Shown here piece by piece: positions 2,403 through 16,903 of a DNA stretch of 20,487 nt. The notes under the pieces were generated by a model, which did not search any database, was not told the DNA's origin, and saw nothing but the letters and a program-made list of their open reading frames with translations. Each line of letters starts with the position of its first letter. Position 1 is the first letter of the stretch. Source of the stretch: a virus; IMG/VR virus record IMGVR_UViG_3300023176_002873, positions 1-20,487 of that record; one strand, 5' to 3'. The position numbers and the translations under genes are program-made.

Positions 2403-2425
2403 TTCTGTTTTGTATAAAACAGGAG
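2403..2425 (+). promoter_or_regulatory. Leader hairpin covering the Shine-Dalgarno sequence
   Basis: CTGTTTT (2405-2411) pairs perfectly with AAAACAG (2416-2422) around a GTAT tetraloop, and T2404-G2423 and T2403-A2424 extend the stem to 9 pairs. The 3' arm includes most of AGGAG (2421-2425), the ribosome site for the ATG at 2431. In the folded state the site is largely hidden, so translation may depend on melting, on a bound protein or on transcript type. Confidence 0.55.
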
Positions 2426-2430
2426 CTAAA

Positions 2431-2691
2431 ATGGGTAATTCACCTGTCGATAGAAACAAAGACTACATGAGAGAGATGTGGGGCACGAATCGTCTCGCCT
2501 CTGATTATGGATCTATGCAAAGAATCAACGTGCATGAGGAGAAGAAGGAGTTTCTTCAAGAGATTATGGACTATGAGAAGTCTCATGACCTGAAGAAACA
2601 GTCGCAACTTCATGAAAAAATCAGAAATGATGATGATTATGATGACTGGGAGTATGGCACAGAGCCAAATTATGGAAATCCCTGGGCTTAA
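2431..2691 (+). CDS. Hypothetical protein (86 aa), first gene of the late block
   Basis: AGGAG at 2421-2425 decides the ATG at 2431; a TTG at 2410 in the same frame lies inside the leader hairpin and is less likely. The product is soluble and charged. Residues 34-67 read as a long helix (EEKKEFLQEIMDYEKSHDLKK), followed by an acidic Asp-rich stretch DDDYDDWEYG (67-76) and a Pro/Asn-rich end (EPNYGNPWA). No family is recognised. It lies between two late-type promoters and directly upstream of gp25, so a role in virion assembly is possible but not shown. Confidence 0.75.
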   Translation: MGNSPVDRNKDYMREMWGTNRLASDYGSMQRINVHEEKKEFLQEIMDYEKSHDLKKQSQLHEKIRNDDDYDDWEYGTEPNYGNPWA

Positions 2692-2723: not shown

Positions 2724-3125
2724 ATGGCAGTCACAAGGATATCAAGAGCATTTAAGGACATTAGTCTGTCTTTTGAACCACATCCTGTGACAAAAGACCT
2801 TCCAATCTTAAAAAATGAGAATGCAATACGCCGCTCTGTGAGGAATTTAGTGGAAACTATTCCTACAGAGCGATTTTTTCAACCTCTTCTGGGGTCTGAT
2901 GTGCGTGCTAGTCTATTTGACTTTGTTGATTACGGCACTGCGACTGTAATTCAAGAGCAAATATTGACAACGATTGAAAACTTTGAGCCTAGAGTGGCAA
3001 ATGTTGACGTTCAGGTCAATCCACAACCTGATGATAACACCTTTGAGTGTAATATTATCTTCGATATTATCGGTCAGGACTTTCCGACTCAAGAATTTAC
3101 ATTTATACTAGAGGCAACAAGGTAG
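2724..3125 (+). CDS. 25: Baseplate wedge subunit gp25
   Basis: This is a 133-residue protein, almost the length of T4 gp25 (132). Members of this family share a lysozyme-like fold without lysozyme activity and form part of the (gp6)2-gp7-gp25 core of each wedge, where they help to nucleate sheath polymerisation. The family hallmark EPR motif is present at residues 88-90 (ENFEPRVANVDV), followed by the expected beta strands. The N-terminus (SRAFKDISLSFEPHPVT) and the segment on loading and orientation (NENAIRRSVRNLVET, 31-45) also fit the family. It sits directly upstream of gp6, as in other contractile systems. No Shine-Dalgarno sequence precedes the ATG; the gene is the first behind a late promoter box. 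The stop is 4 bases before gp6. Confidence 0.95.
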   Translation: MAVTRISRAFKDISLSFEPHPVTKDLPILKNENAIRRSVRNLVETIPTERFFQPLLGSDVRASLFDFVDYGTATVIQEQILTTIENFEPRVANVDVQVNPQPDDNTFECNIIFDIIGQDFPTQEFTFILEATR

Positions 3126-3129
3126 TAAT

Positions 3130-5010
3130 ATGCCTTTTACTAAGTTTACAAACCTAGATTTTGACCAGATAAGGGCGCAGATAAAGGATTATCTTCGTGC
3201 AAACTCCAATTTTACGGATTTTGACTTCGAAGGATCTAACTTCTCAGTCCTTATCGATACTCTTGCCTATAATACCTACATTACGGCATTCAACTCTAAC
3301 ATGATTGTCAATGAATCCTTCTTGGATTCGGCAACATTAAGAGAAAATGTCGTTTCATTGGCAAGAAACATCGGTTATGTACCTCGCTCCAGAAGCGCCG
3401 CTAAGGCATCTGTGACGATAGAGGTAGAAACAGACGTAGATACCCCTACATTGACCTTAGTGGAGGGTCTGGTATGCGTAGGAAGCGTTAGCAATACAAA
3501 TTATATCTTCTCAATACCTGAAAGTATTACTGCCACAGTGAAGAATGGTAAGGCAACCTTCTCAAGTATTGATATCTACCAAGGCACCTTCTTAAAAAAC
3601 CTGTTTACTGTTGATGGATCTCTCGATCAGAGATTTATTTTGAATAATTCCTTCATTGATACATCAACAATCATTGCAAAAGTCAAGGGTGCTGGTGAAA
3701 CTGGCGAAGGAAGACAATATTCACTCGTCGATAATATCTTAAACGTCGTATCAACCTCTGAAACCTTCTTGATTCAGGAAGTTCAGGACGAAAAATACGA
3801 ATTATTGTTTGGTGATGGGTATTTTGGCAAAAAGTTAGATAATAATTCAGTCGTTACGGTCTCTTACATCGTTACTGATGGCACTGAGGGCAATGGTGCA
3901 TCTAGTTTTGCCTTCTCTGGGCGTGTAGTTGACTCGGTAAACAGTGTTGTTGCTCCAACAAATGTAACATTAACTACAAATAATGCCTCTGCCAACGGTG
4001 GAGACATTGAAAGTGTCGATTCTATCAAGTATTTTGCCCCACGTCTCTATTCTTCACAGTATAGAGCAGTAACTGCAAGAGACTATGAGGCAATTATTCA
4101 GTCAATCTACCCAAATACTGAGTCAGTATCGGTTGTTGGTGGTGAAGAGTTAGACCCACCACAGTTTGGAAACGTTATTATCAGCATCAAACCAAAGAAT
4201 GGTGACTATGTTTCCGATTTTGACAAGCACAACATCCTGACGAAACTGAAAAACTATGCCCTGTCTGGTATCAACCAGCAGATTGTAGACCTTAAGGTTC
4301 TTTATGTTGAGATTGACTCTGCAGTTTACTATAACAACTCACAGGTATCGAATGTTAATGACCTGAAGAGTGATATTACTAGCACTCTGAATACATTCTC
4401 CACATCAACTATCAATAAGTTTGGTGGTAGATTCAAGTATAGCAAACTGTGTCAGACTATTGATAATGTAGATAATGCCATTACTTCTAATATCACCAGA
4501 GTTCGTATTAGAAGAAACTTGAAGGCACTGATTAATCAGTCTGCTCAGTATGAGTTATGCTTCGGTAATAAGTTCCATAAGAATCCTTCAGGGTTCAATA
4601 TCAAGAGTACTGGATTTACTCTTGCATCAAGAATAGGCACATTCTACTTTACAGATGTACCTAATCCAACTGGAAACATGGGTATCATCTCTGTAGTCAA
4701 GGAAGACCTACTTACCGGCGAAAAAATCGTTGAAGTTAAGTCGGCAGGCACCGTTGACTATGAGAAAGGTGAGATTATCATCAATACTCTGAATATTACA
4801 TCTACAACAGCAGCAAACAATATTATTGAGATTCAGGCATTCCCAGAATCCAATGATGTGATTGGTCTGAAAGACCTATATCTAAGCTTTTCTGTTGCCG
4901 ATAGCACCATAAATATGGTTAAGGATACGATTAGTTCTGGCGAACAGATTTCTGGCGTCGGATATAAAGTTACTTCTAGTTACTTAAACGGAGAACTAAA
5001 GAGGGTATAA
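3130..5010 (+). CDS. 6: Baseplate wedge subunit gp6 (J-like)
   Basis: The product has 626 residues (T4 gp6 has 660). Gp6 dimers link neighbouring wedges into the ring around the central hub. The N-terminus (DFDQIRAQIKDYLRAN, then FEGSNFSVLIDTLAYN at about 35-50) is typical of the gp6/J-like family in cyanophages. The conserved central part includes APRLYSSQYRAVTARDYEAI (about 303-322), found also in simpler contractile tails, then a strand-rich C-terminal half. A weak ribosome site AAGG lies at 3119-3122. Order and spacing (4 bases after gp25, one base before the next gene) indicate translation as part of one unit. Family membership is firm; fine structure is inferred from T4. Confidence 0.95.
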   Translation: MPFTKFTNLDFDQIRAQIKDYLRANSNFTDFDFEGSNFSVLIDTLAYNTYITAFNSNMIVNESFLDSATLRENVVSLARNIGYVPRSRSAAKASVTIEVETDVDTPTLTLVEGLVCVGSVSNTNYIFSIPESITATVKNGKATFSSIDIYQGTFLKNLFTVDGSLDQRFILNNSFIDTSTIIAKVKGAGETGEGRQYSLVDNILNVVSTSETFLIQEVQDEKYELLFGDGYFGKKLDNNSVVTVSYIVTDGTEGNGASSFAFSGRVVDSVNSVVAPTNVTLTTNNASANGGDIESVDSIKYFAPRLYSSQYRAVTARDYEAIIQSIYPNTESVSVVGGEELDPPQFGNVIISIKPKNGDYVSDFDKHNILTKLKNYALSGINQQIVDLKVLYVEIDSAVYYNNSQVSNVNDLKSDITSTLNTFSTSTINKFGGRFKYSKLCQTIDNVDNAITSNITRVRIRRNLKALINQSAQYELCFGNKFHKNPSGFNIKSTGFTLASRIGTFYFTDVPNPTGNMGIISVVKEDLLTGEKIVEVKSAGTVDYEKGEIIINTLNITSTTAANNIIEIQAFPESNDVIGLKDLYLSFSVADSTINMVKDTISSGEQISGVGYKVTSSYLNGELKRV

Positions 5011-5011
5011 G

Positions 5012-8000
5012 ATGATAAAAACTGGATTTGAGACGAGGGTAAAAGTTCAGCAAGTTATTGAGAACCAGTTACCAGAGTTTCTACGTTCCGAAAGCCCAAA
5101 GGCTGTAGACTTCCTAAAGCAATATTACATATCTCAAGAATATCAAGGCGGTCCAATGGACCTTGCCAACAATCTTGACCAATATCTGAAGTTTGACAAT
5201 CTTTCCCCAGAAGTTATTTCTGGAGAAACAACTCTTTCTGCAGGTATTTCTTCAACAACTGATACCGTACAGGTAGCATCCACAAAAGGATTTCCTGCTG
5301 AATATGGTCTGTTCAAGATTGACAACGAAATCTTTACTTACACAGGCATCACTACAAACTCGTTTACGGGTTGTGTAAGGGGTTTCAGTGGCATCACATC
5401 GTATAGAACCCAACTCAATGCCGAAGAGTTGGTATTCAGCACCTCAGAGCGGGCAGCACACACCTCTGGCACTACTGTTAAAAACCTGAGTGTTGAGTTT
5501 CTGAAAGAGTTTTACAAGAAACTTAAGTATTCCTTCACTCCTGGTCTTGAGAATGTTGATTTCGTTTCTGACCTGGATGTAAATAACTTCATCAAAGAAG
5601 CAAGGACTCTCTATCAATCAAAGGGTACTGAAGAGTCATACAGAATCCTCTTCAATATTATCTTCGGTGTAACCCCCAAGGTTGTTGACCTTGAAGGGTA
5701 TCTTCTGAAGCCATCAACTTCTGAGTATCTGAGAAGAGAAGTTGTTGTTGCTGAAAGAATTTCTGGTGACCCAAACAAACTTCTTGGTCAAACTATCAAG
5801 AAGTCAACCGATGAAGAAACTCAAGCTTCAGTATCTGAAGTAGAAATCTTTACTAGGTCTGGTATCACAACTTATTATAAGTTAAATCTTTTTGTTGGAT
5901 ATGACGACAAGGATTTAATCGAAGGGACATTTGATATTCAACCTAAATCAAAAGTTATCAATCCAGTTTCGGTAGGATCTTCAGTAATCACTGTAGACAC
6001 CACTATTGGATTTACTGAGTCTGGCACTTTAATTTCAGGCGACAATACTATCACATACACAAGCAAAACTGTAAACCAGTTTTTAGGTTGTAGTGGTGTT
6101 GAGACTGCAATATCTACTACAGATGAGATTCGCACCAGTGAAGTATTTGTTGGTTATGAAGATGGGGATATATCCAAGAAGGTTGAGATTAGAATCACTG
6201 GTGTAATCTCAGACTTTGAGCAAAGAAGTGATATCCTTCTTTCAACAGAAGGTCAGCAAATATATGTCAAGAATGTTGGTGAGAAAGTTTTAAATCCAGA
6301 TTCAAATAGCAGTTATAAGCAAATCTTTGCAAACTCATGGATTTATAACACAAGTTCCAGATATCAAGTAGAGCAAATCAGTGGCTCTGCATTCAAGTTG
6401 AAGTCTAGTGTTGATAAATCCAGCCTTAAAGTTGGTGATAAGGTAGACATTCTTCAGGGCAATACTGAGACTGTCGCTCATAGCAACGCTGAAGTTGCTT
6501 CCGTTTCTGGTAGCACTGTTACCTTAAATAACCTTTCTGGATTCACTCACAATACTTCTCTTGATTATACAATCAGAAGAAAGTTAAATACTGCCTCCAG
6601 CTCTGGCACTCCTCTGCTTTATGGTAATGATGTATTGACAACAGATGTACAGAATGTTTATTTTGAGAATGATGAGTATTACTACGTTGCATCAAACTCT
6701 TTACCCTCATATGAGGTAACTAAGACTGTTAAGAAGGCAACCATTTCGTCTGCAAGTGGTTCTGCTTTACAAGGATATAGCAGCAGCACTGAGAAGTATA
6801 ATACACTTTCTTTCCCATCCAGCGTCCCCTTCATCACTGGAGATAAGGTAAAGTACTCTGCATCTGGCACAGCACTTTCTGGTATGCCTGAAGGTGTATA
6901 TTATGTTAAGGTGCTCTCCCCCAATAACAAGATAAAGTTATACCTCTCAAGAGCTCTTATTCAAATTGATACACCTGTTGAGTTTACATCAACATCTTCA
7001 TCAGGGTCTCACACATTTGTCTTAGTAGACCAGGAAGATGAGAAGATATATCCACAGAAAATCTTCAAGAAGTTTCCATCATCTAAGAATATCAAGATTG
7101 GAAACAAAACTGAAACTATTCCTGGATCTACAGGATTATTTGTCAATGGCGTTGAAATCTTAAACTATAAGTCTGAAGATAAGATTTACTATGGACCTGT
7201 ATCAAAACTTCAGGTCTATAATGGTGGTACCGATTATGATGTCGTAAATCCACCAACAGTAAGCATTGCCTCACCATCTTCAGGAACAACTGCCTTAGCA
7301 AGAGCAGTAGTTTCTGGTAGTGTACATGATGTATTGGTAGACCCACAATCCTTCGATGTCAAGGATGTCTTGTCTGCAACTATTGAAGGTGGAAATGGTA
7401 GTGGAGCAGTATTAAAACCGATTGTTGAAACCAGATATCGTGAGATTGATTTTAATGGTAGTTCTTCCTTAATCGGTGGCGGTGTAGACTATATCAATGA
7501 TGTTATTGTATTCTCATCAAGTCACAATCTGACTGATGGTGATGGTGTAGTTTACAATAGAAATGGAAATACCGCTATCGGTATCGGCACTTTTGGTGGA
7601 AGCAATAATCCTACTGGCAACACACTCATCAGTGGATCTGTCTACTATGCTGGTGTTGAGAATGCAACTTCCATCAAACTTTACTCTTCAAAGGGTGATC
7701 ATGCAAGCGGTATCAATACTGTAGGATTCACTACTGCTGTTTCTCAGGGCACTCACAAACTCAAAACGTTTGCTGCTAGAAAAACACTTACATCTATTAA
7801 AGTATTAGATGGTGGTAGTGGTTATACTAATAAGAAACTATATGTAAAGACCTCTGGTATCTCTTCAGTTGAAGACACCATTACCTTTGAAAACCATGGA
7901 TTCTCTGATGGTGACATTATCACTTATAGCACCACAGGGACCGCTATAACAGGTCTTTCTACTACTTCTAGGTACTATGTCCTTAAGGAGGACAACAACA

Positions 8001-11000
8001 GGTTTAGAGTCGCTAATGCAGGCATTGGAGGGACGATTACAACCAACTATACCAAGAGAGATTATGTAGACTTACAGTCCTCTGGTACTGGATATCAAAT
8101 ATTCTCATATCCCGATATTACAGTTACTGTCAATGCCGAATTTTCATCTAGTGCTGACAGTATAACTGCTACACCGATTATTAGAGGTTCTATTGATGAT
8201 GTGTATCTCTATGAGAATGGCACTGGTTATGGCACAGAAATTTTAAACTTCCATAAAAAACCACAAGTATCTCTCAACATTGGTAAGGATGCTGAGTTGA
8301 CTCCTGTCATATCTTCGGGGAGAATCACTAGTGTTATAGTTTCTGCCGCTGGTCAAGACTATACTTCAGCACCTCTTCTAACCTTAAACAGTAGGAATGG
8401 TGTTGGTGCTAAGTTGAGAGCAGTTGTAAATGATGCTGGGAAGATTACTAGCGTCGTCGTTCTCAATGGTGGCATTGGATATGGTAGTGATACTACCATT
8501 ACCGTTTCTCCAAATGGTAGAAATGCATATATTGAAGCGTCTGTAAGAGACCTTACAGTCAATAAACTTTCTAAGTTTGATAAAGAAATAATCATTAAGA
8601 ATCCTGATAACAATCAAGGTTTAGAGTATGGATTTGTTGGATACTCAACTTCAATCGGTGATGATGTTTATGGTGACGATGGATCTGACCACTCACCTAT
8701 TATCGGATGGGCATTTGATGGAAATCCAATCTATGGACCATATGCTTACAGTGATTCTGATGACATCAACTCATCCATAAAACCGCTTACTTCTGGATAT
8801 ACATTATCAACATCTAGTGTTGTTGATAGACCTTCATCTTTTGCTTCCGGATTCTTTGTTGAAGATTATATCTATGACAACTCTGGCGACCTTGATGAAT
8901 ATAATGGAAGATATGAAAAGACACCAGAGTTTCCAAAGGGAGTTTATGCATATCACGCAACAATATCGAATACTTCTTCAGAACCAGAGTTTCCTTACTT
9001 CGTAGGAAATTACTACAAGTCCCTGCCACTTGACCAATCCTTAGACCAAACATTTGACTTCAATTCTTCCAATCTTCTCAGAAATACCTTCCCATATAAA
9101 GTAGCGGAAAAGTATGCTGATAACGATTTTATCAGTGAAGCAAATGAGGCACTGATTCAGAACGCTATTATTGAATCAATAACCAAAGGATCCGTCACTG
9201 GTCTCACTATCAATGAAGATGGCGATGAATACATGGTTGGTGATGTTGCCAGTTTCGATAACACTGACACTAATGGTGGCGGAATCAGTGCTGATGTTAA
9301 GAGTGTTGTTGGAAAGAGAATCGTTAGCATTGATACTAGTGTAGATTCTTATCAATCCACAAAAGTTGTTTGGGAAAACTCAAATAAGATTTCATTGCAT
9401 CTTGACAACAAACAACATCAAATCTTAGATGGTGAAAGTGTCGTAGTATCTGGTCTCTCAACATTCATCTCTGGTTTGACCAAATCACACTTGGTTGGTA
9501 TTACTTCAGAAACCACTACACTTATTAGACAGTTACCAAGTAACACTACTGCTGGTGTAGTAACAGATATCTACGTTTCTAGAATACCTGTAAGTCTATC
9601 GGTAGGATCCACTGTTGCTATCGGCACAGAGGGTCTGTCTGTCTTGAATATCTTCCCATCAAATAAGGTTGTAAGAGCAACAAGATCAGTAACTGGCACT
9701 GCCCACACAGCATCAACAGAAGTTACCGTTGTTGATGGTAAACTCACCATCGATGCTAAGGTAGATTACTTTGAATCTAAACTGAATGATAAGGTATATT
9801 TCCATCCAACGCAATCTGTTGGTATAGGAACTACCGCAGGTATTGCAGTTTCAAACTCCTACACTATTGCTGACCTGACATCAACAATCTCAGTTCCTAC
9901 TCAAAGCATTTATCTTCCAAACCATCCATTCAAGAATGCTCAACCAGTCACTTTCTCAAGAGTTGCTGGATCAAATGCAATATCCGTTGCAAGCACGGAA
10001 ACAAGCACTCCATTTAATATTCCAACCACCGGCAATACACAGACACTTTATGTAATCAATAAGTCTAAAGATTACATTGGTCTGACTACTTCGGTCGGTC
10101 TTACAACTAACACTGGTGGTTTATTCTTCATATCATTTACAGAAAATGGTGATGCAAGTGATTATCAATATGCATTAGAGTCTAACTTCAATCAAGTAAC
10201 TGCAACTGTAAGTAAAGTTGATACAGTTGTCTCAGTGTCAACGTCACACTTACTTTCTAATGGTGACAACATCATTCTTGATGTGAAACCAGGACAGTCT
10301 GTTGGTATTGCAACAACAACCCCAGTTGTAGTTAAGTATAACTCAAATCATAACAAACTTTTAGTCAATCCAGTTGGATTTACATCTGTTGGTGTTAATA
10401 CTGTAAGCGACCAACTCACTATTACTTCTCACGGATTTAAAACTGGTGATAAAGTATTTTATGATTCATCAGACATTCTGATTTCTGGTCTGACGACAGG
10501 ATCATACTACGTCTACAGAATTGATGATAACAATCTGAATCTGACAGATACTTATTATGATGCAGTTTCTTCACCACCATCTATAGTCAGTCTTGGTTCT
10601 ACTGGTGGTGCAGGACAAGAGTTGACTTCTATCAACCCTCGCATCGAAGTTGAAAGGAATAATAGTCTTGTATTTGATGTATCACATTCTTCTCTGAATG
10701 GATATAACTTTAACATCTATAGAGATGCTGCATTTAATAATAAGTTAGTTTCTACAGGGTCAACTACTGTATTCAGTGTCACTGGTGTAGGCACGATTGG
10801 TGTTTCTTCAACGGCAAGAGTTACATTAGATTATAGTGATGAGTTACCAACAATCATATACTACTCATTAGAAAAATCTGGTTACATTACAACAGCAGAT
10901 AACTCTGTCAAAAACTCTTCTGAGATTCTGTTTGTCGATAGTCCTTACAAAGGAAACTATAACGTCTTTGGAGTTGGTACCACAACATTCCATGTATCTC

Positions 11001-14000
11001 TGAATGAAGTCCCAGATTTCTTATCTTATACCCAAGATAATACTGATGTATTAGAATACTCCACAACCTCAGCAACTGCTAAGGGTGGTGTAAAATCCAT
11101 GAGAATCGTTTCTGGTGGTAATAACTACAAGAGACTTCCTAAGTTTAACAGTATCATTTCTACAAGTGGTGAAGGTGCTGATATTATTCCAACATCATCT
11201 ACAATTGGTAGAATCAAAGAAGTATCAGTTGATGATGCTGGATTTGATTTCTCTGCCGACAAGACACTGAATCCTGAGGCATACATTTCACCAACGATTA
11301 ACGTAATCAATAGAGATATTGTTACCAACGTTTCAATCTTAGATGGTGGTAGAAACTATGTGTCTGCTCCCGATTTAGTCATTGTCAATCCAGAAACAGG
11401 CAGTGCATACTCCACTGGTGTTTTGGAAGCGGAGATTCAAGGGTCTGCAATATTCTCCGTTAATATTATTGAGTCACCAATAGGTCTTGCACAGATAAAC
11501 AACAAACTTTATGCAGTAAACAACAGTAATGGCATTGGCATCTCTAGTTGCTTCTCTTCTAATACTGGTATCATAACCTGTCACATTGCAACTCCAATTT
11601 TAGGATTCTCTACCGCACCATTCACTGTCGGTGAAGAAGTGTTTGTTGAGAATATTAGAAAGTTTGGTACTAGCGGAGAAGGACATAACTCCACAGACCA
11701 TGGATACAACTTCTTCACAGTTTCTTCATTCACAAATTCAAACCCAGCAATAGTTGAGTTTGACATTTCAGAATACACCACTAATCCTGGTATAGCAGTA
11801 ACTAATCAATCTCTCTACGCTTCTATTATTAAGAAGAGTGATTATCCATCATTTGAGTTAACTCAAGTCCTTTCTAACTTCATTCTAGATGAGCCTATTT
11901 TGACCTTAGAAGGTAATGATTATGTTGAGAGAGATTTGATTGTAACTGAAAATCTTGAGGATTCAATCAAAGTATATGGCACTTATGTTTTAAGTGAAGA
12001 TGATGTCATCCTTGGCAAATATTCTGGCACTAAAGCAACAATCAATAGTATCGTTGAAAATAGAGCAATCTTCAAAGTAGATTACTCTACAAGAAAGAAT
12101 CTTGGTTGGTCTGATGATATTGGAAAACTGAATCAAGATTATCAGGTAACATCAGATAATGATTACTTCCAAAATCTTTCTTATACAATCAAGAGTCCTA
12201 TTGAATATGAGGATTTGATTAATCCAGTCAATAGACTTCTTCATACTTCTGGATTGAAGAATTTCGCTGATACTGAGATACAGACTACAGTTAACGCAGG
12301 CTCTGCAACCACATCAACTTCATCAAGCACTCTTGCTCTTGTTGATATTATCTCTGAAGAGAGAGTTGATACTATCAACGACTTTGACCTTGTTATTGAT
12401 ATTGATACTCAAACTTATTCACCTGCAAGATCTAAGTATATCAAGTTCCAAAATAAGAAACTTGCAGACTACATTAAGTGTGTTAGCAACAGAGTACTTT
12501 TCGTTGATAATATAAACTCTCAATTCTCTAATGAAGGTGATGCGGATTTATATGTTGACATGCTCAACTATAGCATCAATGATGGTTTGAATAGATTTGT
12601 TGTCCAGGTAATCAATCCAGACAGCACCGAAAGACAGATAAGTGAAATCTATACATTACCAACAGTAGATAAAAATATTATAACCTTTGAAAGAGGAAGT
12701 CTCTTCAACACTAGCGATAAAGTTGCGGACATTTCTGGGCATATCTCAGAGTTTGGTGCTTTAACACTCAGATTCCTGCCAACTGAGCAGTTTGATTCTG
12801 ACTACGATATCAAGATTTTGAGAAATAACTTCTCGTCTTCTCTTGCTGGAATCGGTACCCGTACTGTAGGATTTGTAAATCTTACAGGATCTAATATATC
12901 GGTTGGTGCTGGAAATACATCTTCCATCATTAATGCCAATACATCATCAACCGAATCACTTTTCGTTAGTGCTGAAGTAGAAGATTTAACGACTAATGAG
13001 TTAAACTATGTTGAGTTGTTTGTTGACCACAATGGCACAGATACGTTTGTTTCAGAATATTACCTTGACAATGATTCTCCAGTAGAATCTTCTACAAACT
13101 TTATCGGCACATTTACATCATCTATAAACTCTGGTGTATTGTCAATCAACTTTGAAAATACTGAGTCTAATACAGTATTTGTTCGCTCTAAGGTTGTTGG
13201 GTTTGGAACAACGGCTGCTGGAATCGGAACATATAGATTCTTGAGCAGTGGTCAACCAGAAGGTAGTGAAACGACAGTTAGACTGCATAGTGATTTTGTT
13301 AACCAGTCTGGTATCTCTACAATCTTTAGTGTAGCAAGGAGTGATGTAACTTCTATCAAGTCTCTGGTAAGAGTTTCTTATGGAAGCACATCTGCTTTAC
13401 ATCAAATACTGGTAGTCCATGATGGCACCGATACATATACCTTACAATATCCATTCCTCTCTATACAAGATGAAGTTGGTATTGGCACCTTTGGGTCCAA
13501 GTTTGATGGGTCTGACTTAGTTGTTAACTTCTACCCAGAATCTGGTATTTCTGACACCATTTCACTTCAGGCATTCAGTGAATTTATTCAGTCTGAAAGT
13601 GACTTGGATAATACCCCATTAGATTTGTCTTATGGTAGCGTCAGAGAATCTTTACTGGTCTCTGGATATGATTCGATTAATGGAAATCGCGTCAACAAAA
13701 CTGAGTTTGAATTAAAGCATAATGATGTGCCCATTTTCCAGAAGACATTCAATCCTTCAGATACAGACGTATTAAATCTGCAAACAGGCACATTTACTGT
13801 AGCAGACCACTTCTTCAGTACTGGAGAGCAACTTACATATAACTCAGCATCTTCTTTTGATGGTGCTACTGTAAATCCAATCATCGATTCAAATACTACT
13901 GTTGGACTTGCAACTACAGTATTTGCAATCAGAGTTAACTCTTCTCAGTTTAGACTTGCTTCTAGCAAGGCAAATGCTACTGCTGGTACAGCGATAACAT

Positions 14001-16903
14001 TCACCTCTGCAGGGGATGGAAATGCCCATACATTGGAAATGTCCAAGAAGATGGAGAAGAGTCTCATCACTGTTAATGGCGTTGTCCAAAGTCCAATATC
14101 ATATGCTCTCATTACAAAAACACTGCAACATAATAGTGGGTCGGTTGGTGTCAATACTGAGTATATGGCACTTTCAGGCATTTCCACAATACTGCCAGGA
14201 GACATTCTCAAGATTGAAGATGAGTTTATAAAAGTCTCTGCTGTTGGTTTCGGATCAACATCAACTGGTCCAATCACTGGAATTGGCACATTTAATCTTG
14301 TTAAGGGTGTTAGAGGATTTGTCGGATCTTCTGCAACGTCACATAATAATGGAGTTGATGCAGATGTTTATGTTGGTGCATTCAACATCGTTGGGTCTAA
14401 TATTCACTTCACAGAACCTCCAAGAGGAAATAGTGGTGAAAATGTAGACTCCAGCAATCTCCCATATCCAAAGGCATCCTTTGGTGGAAGAGTTTATCTG
14501 AGAAATGATTACACCACAAACAAGATATATGATAATATCTCCAAAAACTTCACTGGAGTTGGTGCAACTTACACGGTAAGCGTTGGTGGTGCAAATACAA
14601 CTGGTATTGAGACTGGAAGTGGATTAGTATTCATTAACGACGTATTCCAAACACCTTCCACAGTAAACAATCTTGGAAACAACTACAGTTTCTCTGAGAA
14701 TGCTGGAATAAGCAGTGTTGTATTCACTGGCATAACTGACAGTCTTGGCAACTTGGTATTGTCTGATTATGATGTCAATGCTAATCAACTTCCTAGAGGA
14801 GGAATCATTGTTTCTCTTGGATCTACCCCAGGTCTTGGATATGCTCCACTTGTAGGTGCTGCTGTAACTGCTGTTGTTGGAGCTGGAGGATCTATCGTAT
14901 CAGTTGGTCTTGGCACTACTGATATACTTGGTTCTGGATACAATAGCATCGTGTCCATTGGTATCAGTGTCTTTGAAGAAGGTCACATTGGTGATGTAGC
15001 ATCTATTTCTGCAACTGTTGGTGCTGGCGGAACTCTGGCATTTACTGTTGGTGCTGGAGGAACTGGATATACAAATCCACAAATCCACGTATCTGAGCCA
15101 TCATACGAAAATCTGGAAGTCGTTGGTGTTTCTAGACTTGGTATGGGAGCAACGACAGATACTGGTGTTGGTCTTCTTCTTTCCGTCGAAGTTGGTGCAG
15201 CATCCACAAATGTTGGTATCGGGTCTACTCTGTTTGAGGTTACTTCATTCAAGATTACAAGACCTGGATACGGATTTAAGAAAGGTGATGTATTCAGACC
15301 AGTTGGTCTAGTAACAGGTGCAAACTTGTCTTCACCAGTTAATGATTTTGAATTGACCGTATTAGACACATTTACAGATTCATTCTCAGCATGGCAGTTT
15401 GGTGAGTTAGACTTTATTGACTCCGTTTCTGAATTCCAGAATGGGTCAAGAACTAGATTCCCACTTTACTATAATAATGAGTTAATAAGTTTTGAGGTTG
15501 ACACCAATGATGCACAGTCTGCAGAGATTGACCTCAATTCTATTCTCCTTGTCTTTGTAAATGGTGTTATTCAAGAACCTGGTATTCACTATAGATTTGA
15601 AGGTGGCACATCAATCGTATTTGATGAAGCACCAGATGCATCTGATAATATTTCAATCTTCTTCTATAGAGGCACCAGAGGCACTGATAGCTTCTCTGTT
15701 GACATCATCTCAACACTGGAAGTAGGAGATATCCTCCAAGTTAACAAAAATAATATTATTGATGATACGATTACTCAGGACTTTAGAACAGTTTATAGCA
15801 TTCAATCCTCCGATAGAGTTGAAACAAATCTATATCGTGGTGTAGGTATTGATGAAACAAACTATAAACCAGTTAACTGGACTAAGAAGAAAGTTGACTC
15901 TAAGATTAGTGGAGAGTTTGTGTATAAGACAAGAGATTCTATTGAAACTCAAGTTTATCCAACAGCAAAGATTATCAGTGGTATTACAACTACTGATACT
16001 GAAATATTCGTTGATGATGCAAACTTCTTCAACTATGAAGAAAACGAATCTGCAATCGTCATTAGTGATGTTGATGCTCTCATCGTCTCTTACAGCAATC
16101 CAGTTGCAGCAGCGATTACTGCTACAGTATCTGCCGCAGGAACTATTAGTGGACTGTCTATAAACAACGGAGGGTCTGGATATACTGGAGCTTCAGTTTC
16201 AGTTTCTATCGCTGCTCCTAAGTCTATTGGTGTTGGGGTTGGCACTACAGCAACGGCAACAGTTACTGTTTCTGGTGGTCAACTTACAACTCCAGTTACT
16301 ATTACAAATCCTGGATTTGGATATACAGCAACAAATCCACCACAAGTCCTTGCACCAACATCTAATGTAACTTATGAAAATATAACTGATATTACGACGG
16401 TAAATGGATTCTCAGGAATTGTGACTGGAATCTCAACATCCTCAGGTATTGGCACAGATTTGGCAATCAAGTTCTTCCTCAGTGCCGACACATTTACTGG
16501 TCTTACTACTGGTTATCCTATCCTCATTTCTAATACTCATGTTGGTAATGGAGTAACGTCAATCGACACTGTTGATTCCAATATTGTAGGTATTGGCACT
16601 TCATTTGTCGATAACATTTATACTATTCATGATTTAAATCTCCCATTAGGATCTGGTGGTTCTATTGCCGATATTACAGTAAATGTATTGTCAACAACAG
16701 ATACTACTGGAATCTCAACCTCTGGTGTAAATGTTGGCACATTCTCCTGGGGTAGACTTTCTGGATTTACAAGAAGTTCTTCACCTATTTCTATAGGAGT
16801 AACTGGTCTCACAATTGATTCTGGATTATCAACGTATCCAACTATTCAAAGAAGAGGCTATGGATTAAGGACTAACGGTAGTCTGAGAAAGGACCTAGGA
16901 TAG
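5012..16903 (+). CDS. Giant baseplate wedge/virion structural protein in the gp7 position (3963 aa)
   Basis: The frame is uninterrupted for 11.9 kb. GAGGG at 5001-5005 supports ATG 5012, one base after gp6. The first 60 residues and about 165-245 (EFYKKLKYSF, SKGTEESYRILFNIIFG) match the N-terminal arm of cyanophage gp7-position proteins, and the gp6-X-gp8 order is that of T4 gene 7 (1032 residues). The rest is about four times longer than T4 gp7. It is built of beta-rich modules: tethered-strand units at 68-150 and 325-375, seven 'HGF/GD' units, many GGxGY units, a YHYH-like domain at about 1206-1336, a triplicated HxGTDT unit at about 2525-2860 and three VNGVxQ units after 3016. It ends with QRRGYGLRTNGSLRKDLG, resembling the C-termini of other cyanophage tail proteins. 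There is no signal peptide or membrane segment. The likely role is wedge arm plus surface-exposed appendage; the function of the added modules is inferred. Confidence 0.9.
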   Translation: MIKTGFETRVKVQQVIENQLPEFLRSESPKAVDFLKQYYISQEYQGGPMDLANNLDQYLKFDNLSPEVISGETTLSAGISSTTDTVQVASTKGFPAEYGLFKIDNEIFTYTGITTNSFTGCVRGFSGITSYRTQLNAEELVFSTSERAAHTSGTTVKNLSVEFLKEFYKKLKYSFTPGLENVDFVSDLDVNNFIKEARTLYQSKGTEESYRILFNIIFGVTPKVVDLEGYLLKPSTSEYLRREVVVAERISGDPNKLLGQTIKKSTDEETQASVSEVEIFTRSGITTYYKLNLFVGYDDKDLIEGTFDIQPKSKVINPVSVGSSVITVDTTIGFTESGTLISGDNTITYTSKTVNQFLGCSGVETAISTTDEIRTSEVFVGYEDGDISKKVEIRITGVISDFEQRSDILLSTEGQQIYVKNVGEKVLNPDSNSSYKQIFANSWIYNTSSRYQVEQISGSAFKLKSSVDKSSLKVGDKVDILQGNTETVAHSNAEVASVSGSTVTLNNLSGFTHNTSLDYTIRRKLNTASSSGTPLLYGNDVLTTDVQNVYFENDEYYYVASNSLPSYEVTKTVKKATISSASGSALQGYSSSTEKYNTLSFPSSVPFITGDKVKYSASGTALSGMPEGVYYVKVLSPNNKIKLYLSRALIQIDTPVEFTSTSSSGSHTFVLVDQEDEKIYPQKIFKKFPSSKNIKIGNKTETIPGSTGLFVNGVEILNYKSEDKIYYGPVSKLQVYNGGTDYDVVNPPTVSIASPSSGTTALARAVVSGSVHDVLVDPQSFDVKDVLSATIEGGNGSGAVLKPIVETRYREIDFNGSSSLIGGGVDYINDVIVFSSSHNLTDGDGVVYNRNGNTAIGIGTFGGSNNPTGNTLISGSVYYAGVENATSIKLYSSKGDHASGINTVGFTTAVSQGTHKLKTFAARKTLTSIKVLDGGSGYTNKKLYVKTSGISSVEDTITFENHGFSDGDIITYSTTGTAITGLSTTSRYYVLKEDNNRFRVANAGIGGTITTNYTKRDYVDLQSSGTGYQIFSYPDITVTVNAEFSSSADSITATPIIRGSIDDVYLYENGTGYGTEILNFHKKPQVSLNIGKDAELTPVISSGRITSVIVSAAGQDYTSAPLLTLNSRNGVGAKLRAVVNDAGKITSVVVLNGGIGYGSDTTITVSPNGRNAYIEASVRDLTVNKLSKFDKEIIIKNPDNNQGLEYGFVGYSTSIGDDVYGDDGSDHSPIIGWAFDGNPIYGPYAYSDSDDINSSIKPLTSGYTLSTSSVVDRPSSFASGFFVEDYIYDNSGDLDEYNGRYEKTPEFPKGVYAYHATISNTSSEPEFPYFVGNYYKSLPLDQSLDQTFDFNSSNLLRNTFPYKVAEKYADNDFISEANEALIQNAIIESITKGSVTGLTINEDGDEYMVGDVASFDNTDTNGGGISADVKSVVGKRIVSIDTSVDSYQSTKVVWENSNKISLHLDNKQHQILDGESVVVSGLSTFISGLTKSHLVGITSETTTLIRQLPSNTTAGVVTDIYVSRIPVSLSVGSTVAIGTEGLSVLNIFPSNKVVRATRSVTGTAHTASTEVTVVDGKLTIDAKVDYFESKLNDKVYFHPTQSVGIGTTAGIAVSNSYTIADLTSTISVPTQSIYLPNHPFKNAQPVTFSRVAGSNAISVASTETSTPFNIPTTGNTQTLYVINKSKDYIGLTTSVGLTTNTGGLFFISFTENGDASDYQYALESNFNQVTATVSKVDTVVSVSTSHLLSNGDNIILDVKPGQSVGIATTTPVVVKYNSNHNKLLVNPVGFTSVGVNTVSDQLTITSHGFKTGDKVFYDSSDILISGLTTGSYYVYRIDDNNLNLTDTYYDAVSSPPSIVSLGSTGGAGQELTSINPRIEVERNNSLVFDVSHSSLNGYNFNIYRDAAFNNKLVSTGSTTVFSVTGVGTIGVSSTARVTLDYSDELPTIIYYSLEKSGYITTADNSVKNSSEILFVDSPYKGNYNVFGVGTTTFHVSLNEVPDFLSYTQDNTDVLEYSTTSATAKGGVKSMRIVSGGNNYKRLPKFNSIISTSGEGADIIPTSSTIGRIKEVSVDDAGFDFSADKTLNPEAYISPTINVINRDIVTNVSILDGGRNYVSAPDLVIVNPETGSAYSTGVLEAEIQGSAIFSVNIIESPIGLAQINNKLYAVNNSNGIGISSCFSSNTGIITCHIATPILGFSTAPFTVGEEVFVENIRKFGTSGEGHNSTDHGYNFFTVSSFTNSNPAIVEFDISEYTTNPGIAVTNQSLYASIIKKSDYPSFELTQVLSNFILDEPILTLEGNDYVERDLIVTENLEDSIKVYGTYVLSEDDVILGKYSGTKATINSIVENRAIFKVDYSTRKNLGWSDDIGKLNQDYQVTSDNDYFQNLSYTIKSPIEYEDLINPVNRLLHTSGLKNFADTEIQTTVNAGSATTSTSSSTLALVDIISEERVDTINDFDLVIDIDTQTYSPARSKYIKFQNKKLADYIKCVSNRVLFVDNINSQFSNEGDADLYVDMLNYSINDGLNRFVVQVINPDSTERQISEIYTLPTVDKNIITFERGSLFNTSDKVADISGHISEFGALTLRFLPTEQFDSDYDIKILRNNFSSSLAGIGTRTVGFVNLTGSNISVGAGNTSSIINANTSSTESLFVSAEVEDLTTNELNYVELFVDHNGTDTFVSEYYLDNDSPVESSTNFIGTFTSSINSGVLSINFENTESNTVFVRSKVVGFGTTAAGIGTYRFLSSGQPEGSETTVRLHSDFVNQSGISTIFSVARSDVTSIKSLVRVSYGSTSALHQILVVHDGTDTYTLQYPFLSIQDEVGIGTFGSKFDGSDLVVNFYPESGISDTISLQAFSEFIQSESDLDNTPLDLSYGSVRESLLVSGYDSINGNRVNKTEFELKHNDVPIFQKTFNPSDTDVLNLQTGTFTVADHFFSTGEQLTYNSASSFDGATVNPIIDSNTTVGLATTVFAIRVNSSQFRLASSKANATAGTAITFTSAGDGNAHTLEMSKKMEKSLITVNGVVQSPISYALITKTLQHNSGSVGVNTEYMALSGISTILPGDILKIEDEFIKVSAVGFGSTSTGPITGIGTFNLVKGVRGFVGSSATSHNNGVDADVYVGAFNIVGSNIHFTEPPRGNSGENVDSSNLPYPKASFGGRVYLRNDYTTNKIYDNISKNFTGVGATYTVSVGGANTTGIETGSGLVFINDVFQTPSTVNNLGNNYSFSENAGISSVVFTGITDSLGNLVLSDYDVNANQLPRGGIIVSLGSTPGLGYAPLVGAAVTAVVGAGGSIVSVGLGTTDILGSGYNSIVSIGISVFEEGHIGDVASISATVGAGGTLAFTVGAGGTGYTNPQIHVSEPSYENLEVVGVSRLGMGATTDTGVGLLLSVEVGAASTNVGIGSTLFEVTSFKITRPGYGFKKGDVFRPVGLVTGANLSSPVNDFELTVLDTFTDSFSAWQFGELDFIDSVSEFQNGSRTRFPLYYNNELISFEVDTNDAQSAEIDLNSILLVFVNGVIQEPGIHYRFEGGTSIVFDEAPDASDNISIFFYRGTRGTDSFSVDIISTLEVGDILQVNKNNIIDDTITQDFRTVYSIQSSDRVETNLYRGVGIDETNYKPVNWTKKKVDSKISGEFVYKTRDSIETQVYPTAKIISGITTTDTEIFVDDANFFNYEENESAIVISDVDALIVSYSNPVAAAITATVSAAGTISGLSINNGGSGYTGASVSVSIAAPKSIGVGVGTTATATVTVSGGQLTTPVTITNPGFGYTATNPPQVLAPTSNVTYENITDITTVNGFSGIVTGISTSSGIGTDLAIKFFLSADTFTGLTTGYPILISNTHVGNGVTSIDTVDSNIVGIGTSFVDNIYTIHDLNLPLGSGGSIADITVNVLSTTDTTGISTSGVNVGTFSWGRLSGFTRSSSPISIGVTGLTIDSGLSTYPTIQRRGYGLRTNGSLRKDLG
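6799..8045 (+). repeat. First cluster of protein modules of the 'SHGFxxGDxVxY' type (three copies)
   Basis: Inside the giant gene, three copies of one module lie at about 6799-7035, 7501-7770 and 7876-8045. Each has a strand, a hydrophobic turn and 'GD' (FITGDKVKYSASGTALSG, SHNLTDGDGVVYNRNG, NHGFSDGDIITYSTTGTA), then a YYV or YYA strand (VYYVKV, VYYAGV, RYYVLK), then a residue run around KLY or FRV. The first two end in SHTF or GTHKL. Further, more diverged copies follow at about 9910, 10233, 10420 (SHGFKTGDKVFYDSS ... SYYVYRIDDNN) and 13795 (DHFFSTGEQLTYNSA ... AHTLEM). Confidence 0.7.
7205..8560 (+). repeat. GGxGY beta-module cluster in the giant protein
   Basis: This stretch encodes repeated units of the form strand-GGxGY-strand-Ala/Val-rich strand-turn-strand: VYNGGTDYDVVNPPTVSI, VLDGGSGYTNKKLYV, LQSSGTGYQIFSYPDITV, YENGTGYGTEIL, SAAGQDYTSAPLLTL and LNGGIGYGSDTTITV. 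Units alternate with 'I..V.V' strands that lead into the next one. The same unit recurs at about 11083-11490 (VSGGNNYKRLPKF, ILDGGRNYVSAPDLVI), 14797-15320 (GAGGTGYTNPQIHV, ITRPGYGFKKGDVF) and 16105-16360 (INNGGSGYTGASVSV, TNPGFGYTATNPPQVL). Confidence 0.75.
8627..9019 (+). other. YHYH-type domain inside the giant baseplate protein
   Basis: Residues about 1206-1336 contain the two blocks that mark the YHYH family. The first block is DHSPIIGWAFDGNPIYGPYA (1226-1245). The second is GDLDEYNGRYEKTPEFPKG (1292-1310), followed by VYAYH (1311-1315) and FPYFVGNYYK. The eponymous YHYH sequence is degenerate here (Y1312-A-Y-H1315). The family is known mostly from secreted bacterial and environmental proteins of unclear function; aromatic and His residues suggest ligand or metal binding. 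Within a virion it would be an exposed domain. Recognition is from memory of the motif, not from a search. Confidence 0.75.
11083..11490 (+). repeat. Second GGxGY beta-module group
   Basis: Residues about 2025-2160 of the giant protein read MRIVSGGNNYKRLPKF, then a Ser/Gly linker and IKEVSVDDAGFDFS, then VSILDGGRNYVSAPDLVIV. This is the same strand-GG-x-x-Y-strand plan as the cluster at 7205-8560, about 2.5 kb away, separated by HGF/GD-type units. Confidence 0.65.
12585..13590 (+). repeat. Tandem triplicated ~130-aa module with HxGTDT motif
   Basis: Three diverged copies follow each other at a spacing of about 130-138 residues. Key blocks align: VVQVINPDSTERQISEIYTL, then VELFVDHNGTDTFVSEYYL, then ILVVHDGTDTYTLQYPF. 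Each is followed by GSLF, GTF or GTFGS, and then by 'G-x-L-x-x-x-F' (FGALTLRFLP, SGVLSINFEN, GSDLVVNFYP). The His of the motif is at nt 13028 in copy 2 and at nt 13418 in copy 3. The pattern suggests beta-sandwich domains in a row. Similar units are, as I remember them, common in cyanophage tail proteins of unknown function. Confidence 0.65.
14059..15672 (+). repeat. VNGVxQxP modules of the C-terminal part
   Basis: Three related units lie at about 14059 (LITVNGVVQSPISYAL), 14617 (LVFINDVFQTPSTVNNL) and 15541 (LVFVNGVIQEPGIHYRF, followed by GGTSIVFDEAPDASDNISIF and FYRG). The third is the most complete. The unit is a known building block of cyanophage tail proteins and is usually next to an adsorption-related or fibre-like part; here the role is inferred. 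Confidence 0.65.
14797..15320 (+). repeat. Glycine-rich GGxGY group
   Basis: Residues about 3263-3437 are extremely rich in Gly, Val, Ala and Ser: VVGAGGSIVSVGLGTTD, LGSGYNSIVSIGISV, TVGAGGTLAFTVGAGG, TGYTNPQIHV. The DNA has a matching near-repeat GTTGGTGCTGGNGGAACT at about 15018 and 15047. It ends with ITRPGYGFKKGDVFRPV. A similar but shorter group follows at 16105-16360. Confidence 0.65.

Follow-up and report, generated by a model that had tools for sequence, protein, structure and literature searches.

Comparative sequence analysis indicates that a leader of about 50 nt is conserved upstream of a small gene in many T4-like cyanophages and that a hairpin covering the ribosome site of this gene is its 3' half. 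The 5' half is predicted to fold as an H-type pseudoknot of 28 nt (positions 2380 to 2407), and the element as a whole looks like an uncatalogued translation switch. From sequence conservation and folding predictions, we consider it somewhat probable that this 5' leader is bistable, with the pseudoknot corresponding to an open ribosome site and the hairpin to a closed one, such that the hairpin originally reported would be the "off" half of the device. The DNA analyzed here (the window), a virus record of the IMG/VR type, comprises 20,487 bases and derives from a T4-like cyanophage, whose gp25 (2724 to 3125) and gp6 (3130 to 5010) match baseplate wedge families. Farther downstream, positions 5012 to 16903 hold a single ORF of 3,963 aa, the first 2,000 residues of which match baseplate wedge and virion structural families. 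The features relevant to the leader are as follows.

2334 to 2358, + strand: intrinsic-terminator-like stem and T run preceding the leader (pattern scan, consensus match)
2365 to 2372, + strand: T4-type late-promoter-like motif AATAAATA, 7 nt before stem 1 (conserved spacing)
2380 to 2383, + strand: 5' strand of predicted pseudoknot stem 1, AGGG (covariation, 66 distinct cores)
2384 to 2391, + strand: loop AUAGCAAC, in which A2384 is loop 1 and U2385 to G2387 with A2389 to C2391 form the 5' strand of predicted stem 2
2388, + strand: C in the window, the bulged N of the loop (any base, or deleted, across leaders)
2392 to 2395, + strand: 3' strand of predicted stem 1, CCCU (covariation)
2396 to 2401, + strand: A-rich loop 3, CUAAAA (last four A's invariant in the 66-core alignment)
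2402 to 2407, + strand: putative switching strand GUUCUG, the 3' strand of predicted stem 2, which alternatively pairs with the Shine-Dalgarno (SD) side of the sequestering hairpin
2401 to 2427, + strand: sequestering hairpin in its extended form, the feature first reported (folding, covariation)
2405 to 2411 (CTGTTTT) with 2416 to 2422 (AAAACAG), + strand: hairpin core of 7 perfect pairs around loop GTAT at 2412 to 2415 (sequence)
2421 to 2425, + strand: SD sequence AGGAG, with the ATG at 2431 (sequence)
2431 to 2691, + strand: small ORF of 86 aa directly after the element (phrog_1414 match, E = 3e-05, function unknown)
2724 to 3125, + strand: gp25 baseplate wedge gene (family match)

The ribosome-site hairpin

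A first-pass annotation of the window had described a perfect 7-bp stem with a GTAT loop ahead of the ATG at 2431, which is exactly what the sequence contains. Its statement that the hairpin takes up most of AGGAG is right for the minimum-energy fold, in which the hairpin grows to 2401 to 2427 with G2422 bulged and A2421 and G2423 to G2425 paired, but not for the bare 7-bp stem, which engages A2421 and G2422 only. Likewise, the description of this site as the only clearly hidden ribosome site in the window holds as a ranking rather than in absolute terms: among the eight start codons compared, the predicted accessibility of the SD region is lowest at 2431 (0.13), followed by a doubtful GTG ORF at 965 (0.15) and gp25 (0.26).

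As a single sequence, the 81-nt leader of the window is only mildly unusual in its folding energy (z = -1.17, with 29 of 200 shuffles equal or better); a perfect stem of at least 7 bp arises in 113 of 5,000 dinucleotide shuffles of it, and stems of this length start at 21 positions on the + strand of the window. While these single-sequence statistics are weak, the hairpin appears to be more than a chance feature because it is conserved with compensating changes. In a set of 16 leaders (that of the window and 15 chosen by hand from the best 80 loci of a search with the small protein), double-sided changes are seen at three of the seven pairs (a number reached by 6 of 500 shuffles) and in eight cells (reached by none of 500 shuffles), and 98.2% of the cells are paired. 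Compensating base changes in related cyanophages, for which the annotation had proposed to look, are therefore present, and the uncompensated loss of pairing that it had named as counterevidence is absent from the 16 leaders, save at the loop-closing pair, where 2 of the 16 cells are unpaired.

The hairpin core is A+U rich and weak (-3.8 kcal/mol alone), as might be expected of an RNA thermometer whose sequestering hairpin melts with temperature. This explanation leaves the conserved letters of the predicted pseudoknot without a role, and sequestering stems vary a great deal from one lineage to another; we regard it as exceedingly improbable.

A predicted pseudoknot in the 5' half of the leader

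The element has the order NGNG-AUAG(N)AAC-CNCN, an A-rich spacer, GUUCUR, and then the hairpin over the ribosome site. For covariation analysis of its 5' half, we used 66 distinct cores, each selected for having the exact loop, the exact linker, and three or more stem-1 pairs. Across these, pairs 1 and 3 of stem 1 are G-C in all 66, pair 2 is GC in 32, AU in 29, CG in 3, and UA in 2, and pair 4 is GC in 27, AU in 22, CG in 3, UA in 3, GU in 1, and unpaired in 10. Thus, all four Watson-Crick types occur at two of the four pairs, and 96.2% of the cells are paired. There are 62 cells changed on both sides, a number reached by none of 500 shuffles and falling to 0 in every version with the strands slid, although such shuffle counts overstate independence because the leaders are related by descent. 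The covariation score of stem 1 likewise exceeds that of all 500 shuffles and drops away once the strands are slid, whereas two of the five measures do not rise above the shuffles: how many pairs show a double change (reached by 350 of 500 shuffles) and how many further pair types occur (56 of 500). With the stem-1 filter off and the loop and linker still exact, four pairs are seen in 189 sequences, five in 46, six in 61, and seven or eight in 8, against three in 46 and none or one in 3.

The predicted stem 2 rests on the complementarity of UAG(N)AAC in the loop to GUUCUR in the linker, with N bulged. In the 66 distinct cores, five of its six pairs are the same throughout, and the remaining one is UG in 49, UA in 15, and something else in 2; being nearly invariant, stem 2 leaves most sequences uninformative about itself. 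The informative cases are diverged leaders. In S-CRM01, a phage from a reservoir, the upper half of the stem is replaced on both strands (loop AUGACAAC, linker GUUUCAU), giving seven pairs with the same bulge, a result matched by 7 of 4,000 shuffled linkers, and the S-CRM01 loop forms only three pairs with the canonical linker. In loci L232 and L233, UAGCA pairs with UGCUG (118 of 4,000 shuffled linkers are as good), and in ACG-2014a, Syn30, and L357, the bulged N is deleted, which yields a continuous helix of six pairs. The S-CBWM1 linker, GUUCCG, introduces a mismatch and leaves four pairs (1,545 of 4,000 shuffled linkers are as good); the variant in L244 is weakly supported (339 of 4,000), its loop pairing about equally with the linkers of other phages; and L247 has a degenerate version of the element. 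A search of viral contigs with the small protein of S-CRM01, made for further stem-2 variants, matched only one record, equal in length to that of S-CRM01. Taken together, these comparisons support stem 1 and the sequestering hairpin well and stem 2 in part.

The duplex energy calculated for stem 2 is -0.7 kcal/mol with the bulge and -4.0 to -4.3 kcal/mol without N. Such weakness allows for a fold that needs a partner in order to form; equally, it allows for a stem 2 that rarely forms.

A late-promoter-like motif upstream of the element

In the window as a whole, matches to the late-promoter-like motif are as frequent as expected by chance (5 found versus 5.6 expected), and it is its placement across leaders that is distinctive. 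The pattern [ACT]TAAATA occurs within 26 nt upstream of stem 1 in 179 of 272 distinct sequences, lying 5 to 7 nt before it in 153 of these 179, versus 1 of 272 in a control window farther upstream. The class of leaders with a CGGG stem has it in only 2 of 57 distinct sequences. If, as we assume, the T4 spacing rule applies, the transcript in the window would start near 2378, at or next to stem 1.

These observations bear on the suggestion of the first-pass annotation that the hairpin could be a translational switch, for instance one keeping read-through early transcripts silent. That idea corresponds to the logic of T4 gene e, and passages of the T4 literature indicate that e, soc, 49, and I-TevI all use a sequestered SD sequence at the start of a late gene in this way (PMC3014915). 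Such a silencer would be in keeping with the partial TATAAA that 10 of 255 distinct leaders, including that of the window, have inside the hairpin and with the absence of the upstream motif from most leaders of the CGGG type. However, the full motif is found inside the hairpin in none of the 255 distinct leaders, and its usual position upstream of the whole element means that a late mRNA would carry the element in its entirety, which argues against a gene e-type silencer; in the window, moreover, the terminator-like stem precedes the promoter. We therefore retain from the suggested switch a ribosome site sequestered by a conserved, covarying stem and consider the silencing of early read-through transcripts to be very unlikely. 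The gp25 gene has an ATAAATA of its own (2694 to 2700), and the main target of the leader is therefore probably the small ORF.

Predicted competition of the two folds for one strand

The annotation overlooked that the 5' strand of the hairpin is common to the predicted upstream pseudoknot, which suggests a leader with two states, of which the hairpin would be one. GUUCUR can be used by only one fold at a time, which would make the pseudoknot and hairpin mutually exclusive and predicts a switch. In pseudoknot-free minimum-energy folds of 197 distinct segments, for which four stem-1 pairs and a called start were required, at least 3 nt of GUUCUR pair with the start region in all 197, compared to 153 ± 6 of 197 (maximum, 174) in 100 shuffle sets, and the mean energy is -10.3 kcal/mol versus -5.9 kcal/mol in shuffles. 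We also calculated accessibility for 255 distinct leaders, drawn from 431 elements that include 3 with no called start, alongside 12 control sets in which the stretch before the SD sequence was shuffled and the SD sequence itself kept. When GUUCUR is withheld, the probability that the start region is unpaired climbs from 0.40 to 0.65 (in controls, from 0.49 to 0.62), with a gain above 0.1 in 225 of the 255 leaders (controls, 148 ± 8) and a loss above 0.1 in 9. For the SD sequence alone, a gain above 0.2 is seen in 183 of 255 leaders (controls, 144 ± 5), and the mean accessibility goes from 0.24 to 0.56. The gain in the controls is nearly as large (0.28 to 0.53), a consequence of short leaders and of an SD sequence that can itself pair with GUUCU. 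The window shows only a partial release of its SD sequence (0.20 to 0.39), because a shifted hairpin remains.

The sequestering arm varies by lineage, pairing with CAGGAGC, with AGAGAGG, or in such a way that the site just before the ATG is enclosed; the corresponding designs are CUGAUUU..AAAUCAGGAG, CUGUUU..GGAGAAACAGAUG, and CUCUCUAAAAGUUCUGGAAACAG..UUUAGAGAGG. In locus L075, the nucleotide shared by the two folds is A instead of G, and its partner in the hairpin has changed from C to U. Two exclusive folds, one of which hides the SD sequence, are a general trait of riboswitches, and here such a pair of folds is predicted, with support from comparison.

Could the leader simply consist of two static hairpins at the 5' end of a late mRNA, acting as a stabilizing or protective structure and a fixed translational damper, with neither switching nor a pseudoknot? 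Stem 1 and the sequestering hairpin do coexist in the minimum-energy fold of the window, the transcript would begin right at stem 1 given the spacing of the promoter-like motif, and stem 2 is weak. Such an arrangement, though, does not explain the invariance of the loop AUAG(N)AAC and the linker AAAAGUUCU, which were selection criteria of the 66-core set but are also seen in the protein-anchored sets, nor does it account for the re-paired letters in S-CRM01. Furthermore, as read by eye, the sequestering helix of other lineages appears to use the 3' strand of stem 1, in which case the two could not coexist. We thus rate static hairpins as a rather improbable account of the leader.

Distribution of the leader and its association with the small gene

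A scan with the element pattern recovered at least 120 stretches, and gp25 follows 150 to 500 nt on in 108 of the 109 that have at least 700 nt downstream. Among the 600 pattern-matched viral stretches listed, 591 encode a relative of the small protein; of the best 80 loci kept, all 78 with a contig reaching far enough have the same leader before the gene. More distant protein queries, in which the leader was not the bait, found the exact-core element in 39 of 46 loci, 14 of 33 loci, 67 of the 76 assessable among the best 80 kept, and 72 of the best 80 kept; these sets share contigs and are not summed. One further query was left out of the presence counts, as 16 of its 19 loci matched the C-terminal stretch only, in an upstream ORF. 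The seven loci (of 46) without the exact element comprise the variants in L232, L233, and L244, the degenerate version in L247, and L242, L243, and L245, which have none.

By blastn, the 71-nt leader matches 128 phage records at E <= 10, 114 of them named as Synechococcus phage or cyanophage; many are near-identical isolates, and mostly the core alone is covered. We assembled 25 named records, of which 7 came from the leader search, 2 from blastn with the region, and 8 each from searches with gp25 and with the small protein. The element is present in 18 of these 25, counting the variants in S-CRM01 and S-CBWM1: Syn9, S-SKS1, S-SRM01, S-B43, ACG-2014a, S-H35, ACG-2014d, ACG-2014f, S-CAM9, P-RSM1, S-SCSM1, S-CBWM1, S-CRM01, S-SZBM1, S-H38, Syn30, S-RSM4, and DSL-LC03. 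It is found in 11 of the 18 named phages that were not picked by the leader. Those without it are P-SSM2, P-HM1, P-SSM7, S-RIM2, S-RIM32, ACG-2014i, and S-PM2, although P-HM1, S-RIM32, ACG-2014i, and S-PM2 do have a small gene of this kind. When seven records whose gp25 locus lacks the element were scanned for a copy elsewhere, a looser pattern matched only S-RIM2 (once) and S-RIM32 (twice), in a chance-like manner. Exactly one match per record was obtained in 18 of 20 records, ACG-2014a and L357 giving zero because N is deleted. Sequence comparison thus places the leader in many viruses of marine and freshwater cyanobacteria.

A cellular origin was considered and set aside. An exact-pattern scan of the GTDB collection, which a diverged cellular version would escape, returned 38 matches, 33 of them chance-like and mostly with one to three stem-1 pairs. 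One of these 33, L399, has five stem-1 pairs, yet no start of a small gene lies in the 40 nt shown. The other five matches (L405, L409, L413, L418, and L431) have the full element and an apparent small-gene start on contigs of 3.4 to 18.9 kb in metagenome-assembled genomes (MAGs) of unrelated taxa, labeled as Lokiarchaeota, Flavobacteriales, Chlamydiae, Woesearchaeota, and Sphingobacteriales. These contigs are probably misbinned phage.

The small protein has no significant Pfam match, and its structure model is poor (pLDDT, 59). From partial translations, it looks modular, in that some relatives appear to be reduced to the N-terminal PVDRD..WGT..LITD part and others to the C-terminal HEKIRNDEDYDDWEYGTEP part; such variants were seen in L085, L095, L108, L114, and L134, with the same leader in front. 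The element tracks this gene rather than gp25, as illustrated by S-SCSM1, where the two lie near petE and PTOX, and S-CBWM1, where they lie between the genes for terminase and PhoH. In the S-SCSM1 record (L215), the leader and small gene occupy 1503 to 1711, and the latter is unannotated; in S-SKS1 (L203), the leader and a small ORF lie at 2204 to 2400, in a stretch free of annotated genes. A G+C-rich stretch of a 34.8-kb contig (L244/L443) encodes a homologous small gene behind a variant leader, with the hairpin closed by a UUCG loop; gp25 is absent directly downstream within the stretch read.

That the element accompanies the gene to other neighborhoods is also what one would anticipate if the pseudoknot were an operator at which an RNA-binding protein of the phage or the host (e.g., gp32, RegA, gp43, or the small protein) blocks initiation, in the manner of T4 gp32 on its own mRNA, with the hairpin only tuning basal translation. 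Passages on T4 gp32 describe its binding to a pseudoknot of about 28 nt located 5' of the start region (PMC535899), and the pseudoknot predicted here is also 28 nt in length. The T4 start region, however, is described there as less structured, with UUAAA/UAAA repeats, whereas the start region here is predicted to be structured and to have a strand in common with the pseudoknot. In addition, the element persists in front of genes whose product has lost the N-terminal module of the small protein (e.g., L085, L114, and L134), which argues against simple autoregulation by that module. A protein operator of this type strikes us as unlikely, while being worth keeping in mind.

Proposed mechanism

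On the basis of these observations, we return to the bistable leader. The 5' half would fold as a 28-nt H-type pseudoknot, with stem 1 formed by NGNG and CNCN, a loop 1 of one nucleotide, stem 2 formed by UAG(N)AAC and GUUCUR, and then the A-rich loop 3. GUUCUR could alternatively pair with the SD side of the next hairpin, but never with both partners at once. Formation of the pseudoknot would open the ribosome site and permit translation of the small late gene, and its undoing would allow the hairpin to hide the site. A trigger, perhaps a metabolite or a protein, would act by stabilizing the intrinsically weak stem 2. We infer the presence of both folds in cells, the polarity in which the pseudoknot is the on state, and the trigger itself.

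A more specific and decidedly tentative proposal is that the leader represents a new class of pseudoknot switch, gated by a ligand or a protein, that turns on late-gene translation when the weak pseudoknot is stabilized. It would possibly be a riboswitch-like device of the T4 superfamily, borne by cyanophages of several genera and sensing the state of the host or a signal of late infection; the element went unrecognized in the cellular genomes scanned by exact pattern. In any event, the element offers a concrete, compact riboswitch-like candidate in cultured phages such as Syn9, makes the posttranscriptional timing of cyanophage late genes directly testable, and provides a first regulatory clue for a widespread small cyanophage gene of unknown function.

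Comparison with known systems

Known RNA families were searched for and rejected as an explanation, in that Rfam 15 scans of stretches of the window gave only matches far below gathering scores, and the window and seven loci gave no match at E <= 1. The preQ1-I and SAM-II riboswitches resemble the element in being compact H-type pseudoknots with an A-rich loop that compete with the SD sequence; here, there is no Rfam match to either of them, and the predicted polarity is on when the pseudoknot forms. No description of the element was found in the open-licence literature with terms for cyanophage pseudoknots, riboswitches, or leaders and the letters of the core, subscription journals and preprints lying outside this search.

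Structured leader RNAs associated with wcaG, manA, PhotoRC-II, and glnA have been described in T4-like cyanophages, according to portions of earlier reports (PMC2864571, PMC9964418, and PMC9602691). These are different families, none of which was found at this locus by the Rfam 15 scans.

For T4 itself, the comparison draws on parts of PMC3014915, PMC535899, and PMC3037559. A split ribosome site is described for T4 gene 25, with a stem between the SD sequence and the AUG (PMC3014915), whereas the stem here lies upstream of and over the SD sequence of a different gene, with 5 nt between the SD sequence and the ATG. Closer is the likeness to e, soc, 49, and I-TevI, late-expressed genes whose SD sequence is also held within an RNA helix, as folding and covariation indicate for the leader here. 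In the case of gene e, the late promoters are described as being placed so that late transcripts lose the 5' arm, which confines silencing to the early ones (PMC3014915); here, by contrast, the whole element comes after the promoter-like motif.

The same 2010 review of T4, in the sections drawn on here, notes that no T4 riboswitch had been functionally characterized and that related genomes might suggest candidates, and it regards the gene 32 pseudoknot as possibly the sole viral pseudoknot in translational autoregulation (PMC3014915). The operator of gene 32 in T4, T2, and RB69 is an H-type pseudoknot of about 28 nt that lies upstream of the start region of a T4-family gene and is tied to the control of translation, an arrangement that is predicted for the present element too. 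Its start region, as far as these sources describe it, is less structured, contains the UUAA(A) repeat, and is bound by gp32, while the leader described here precedes a different gene with a start region that is predicted to be structured, and one strand of its predicted pseudoknot would have a second use, in pairing with the SD side of the hairpin.
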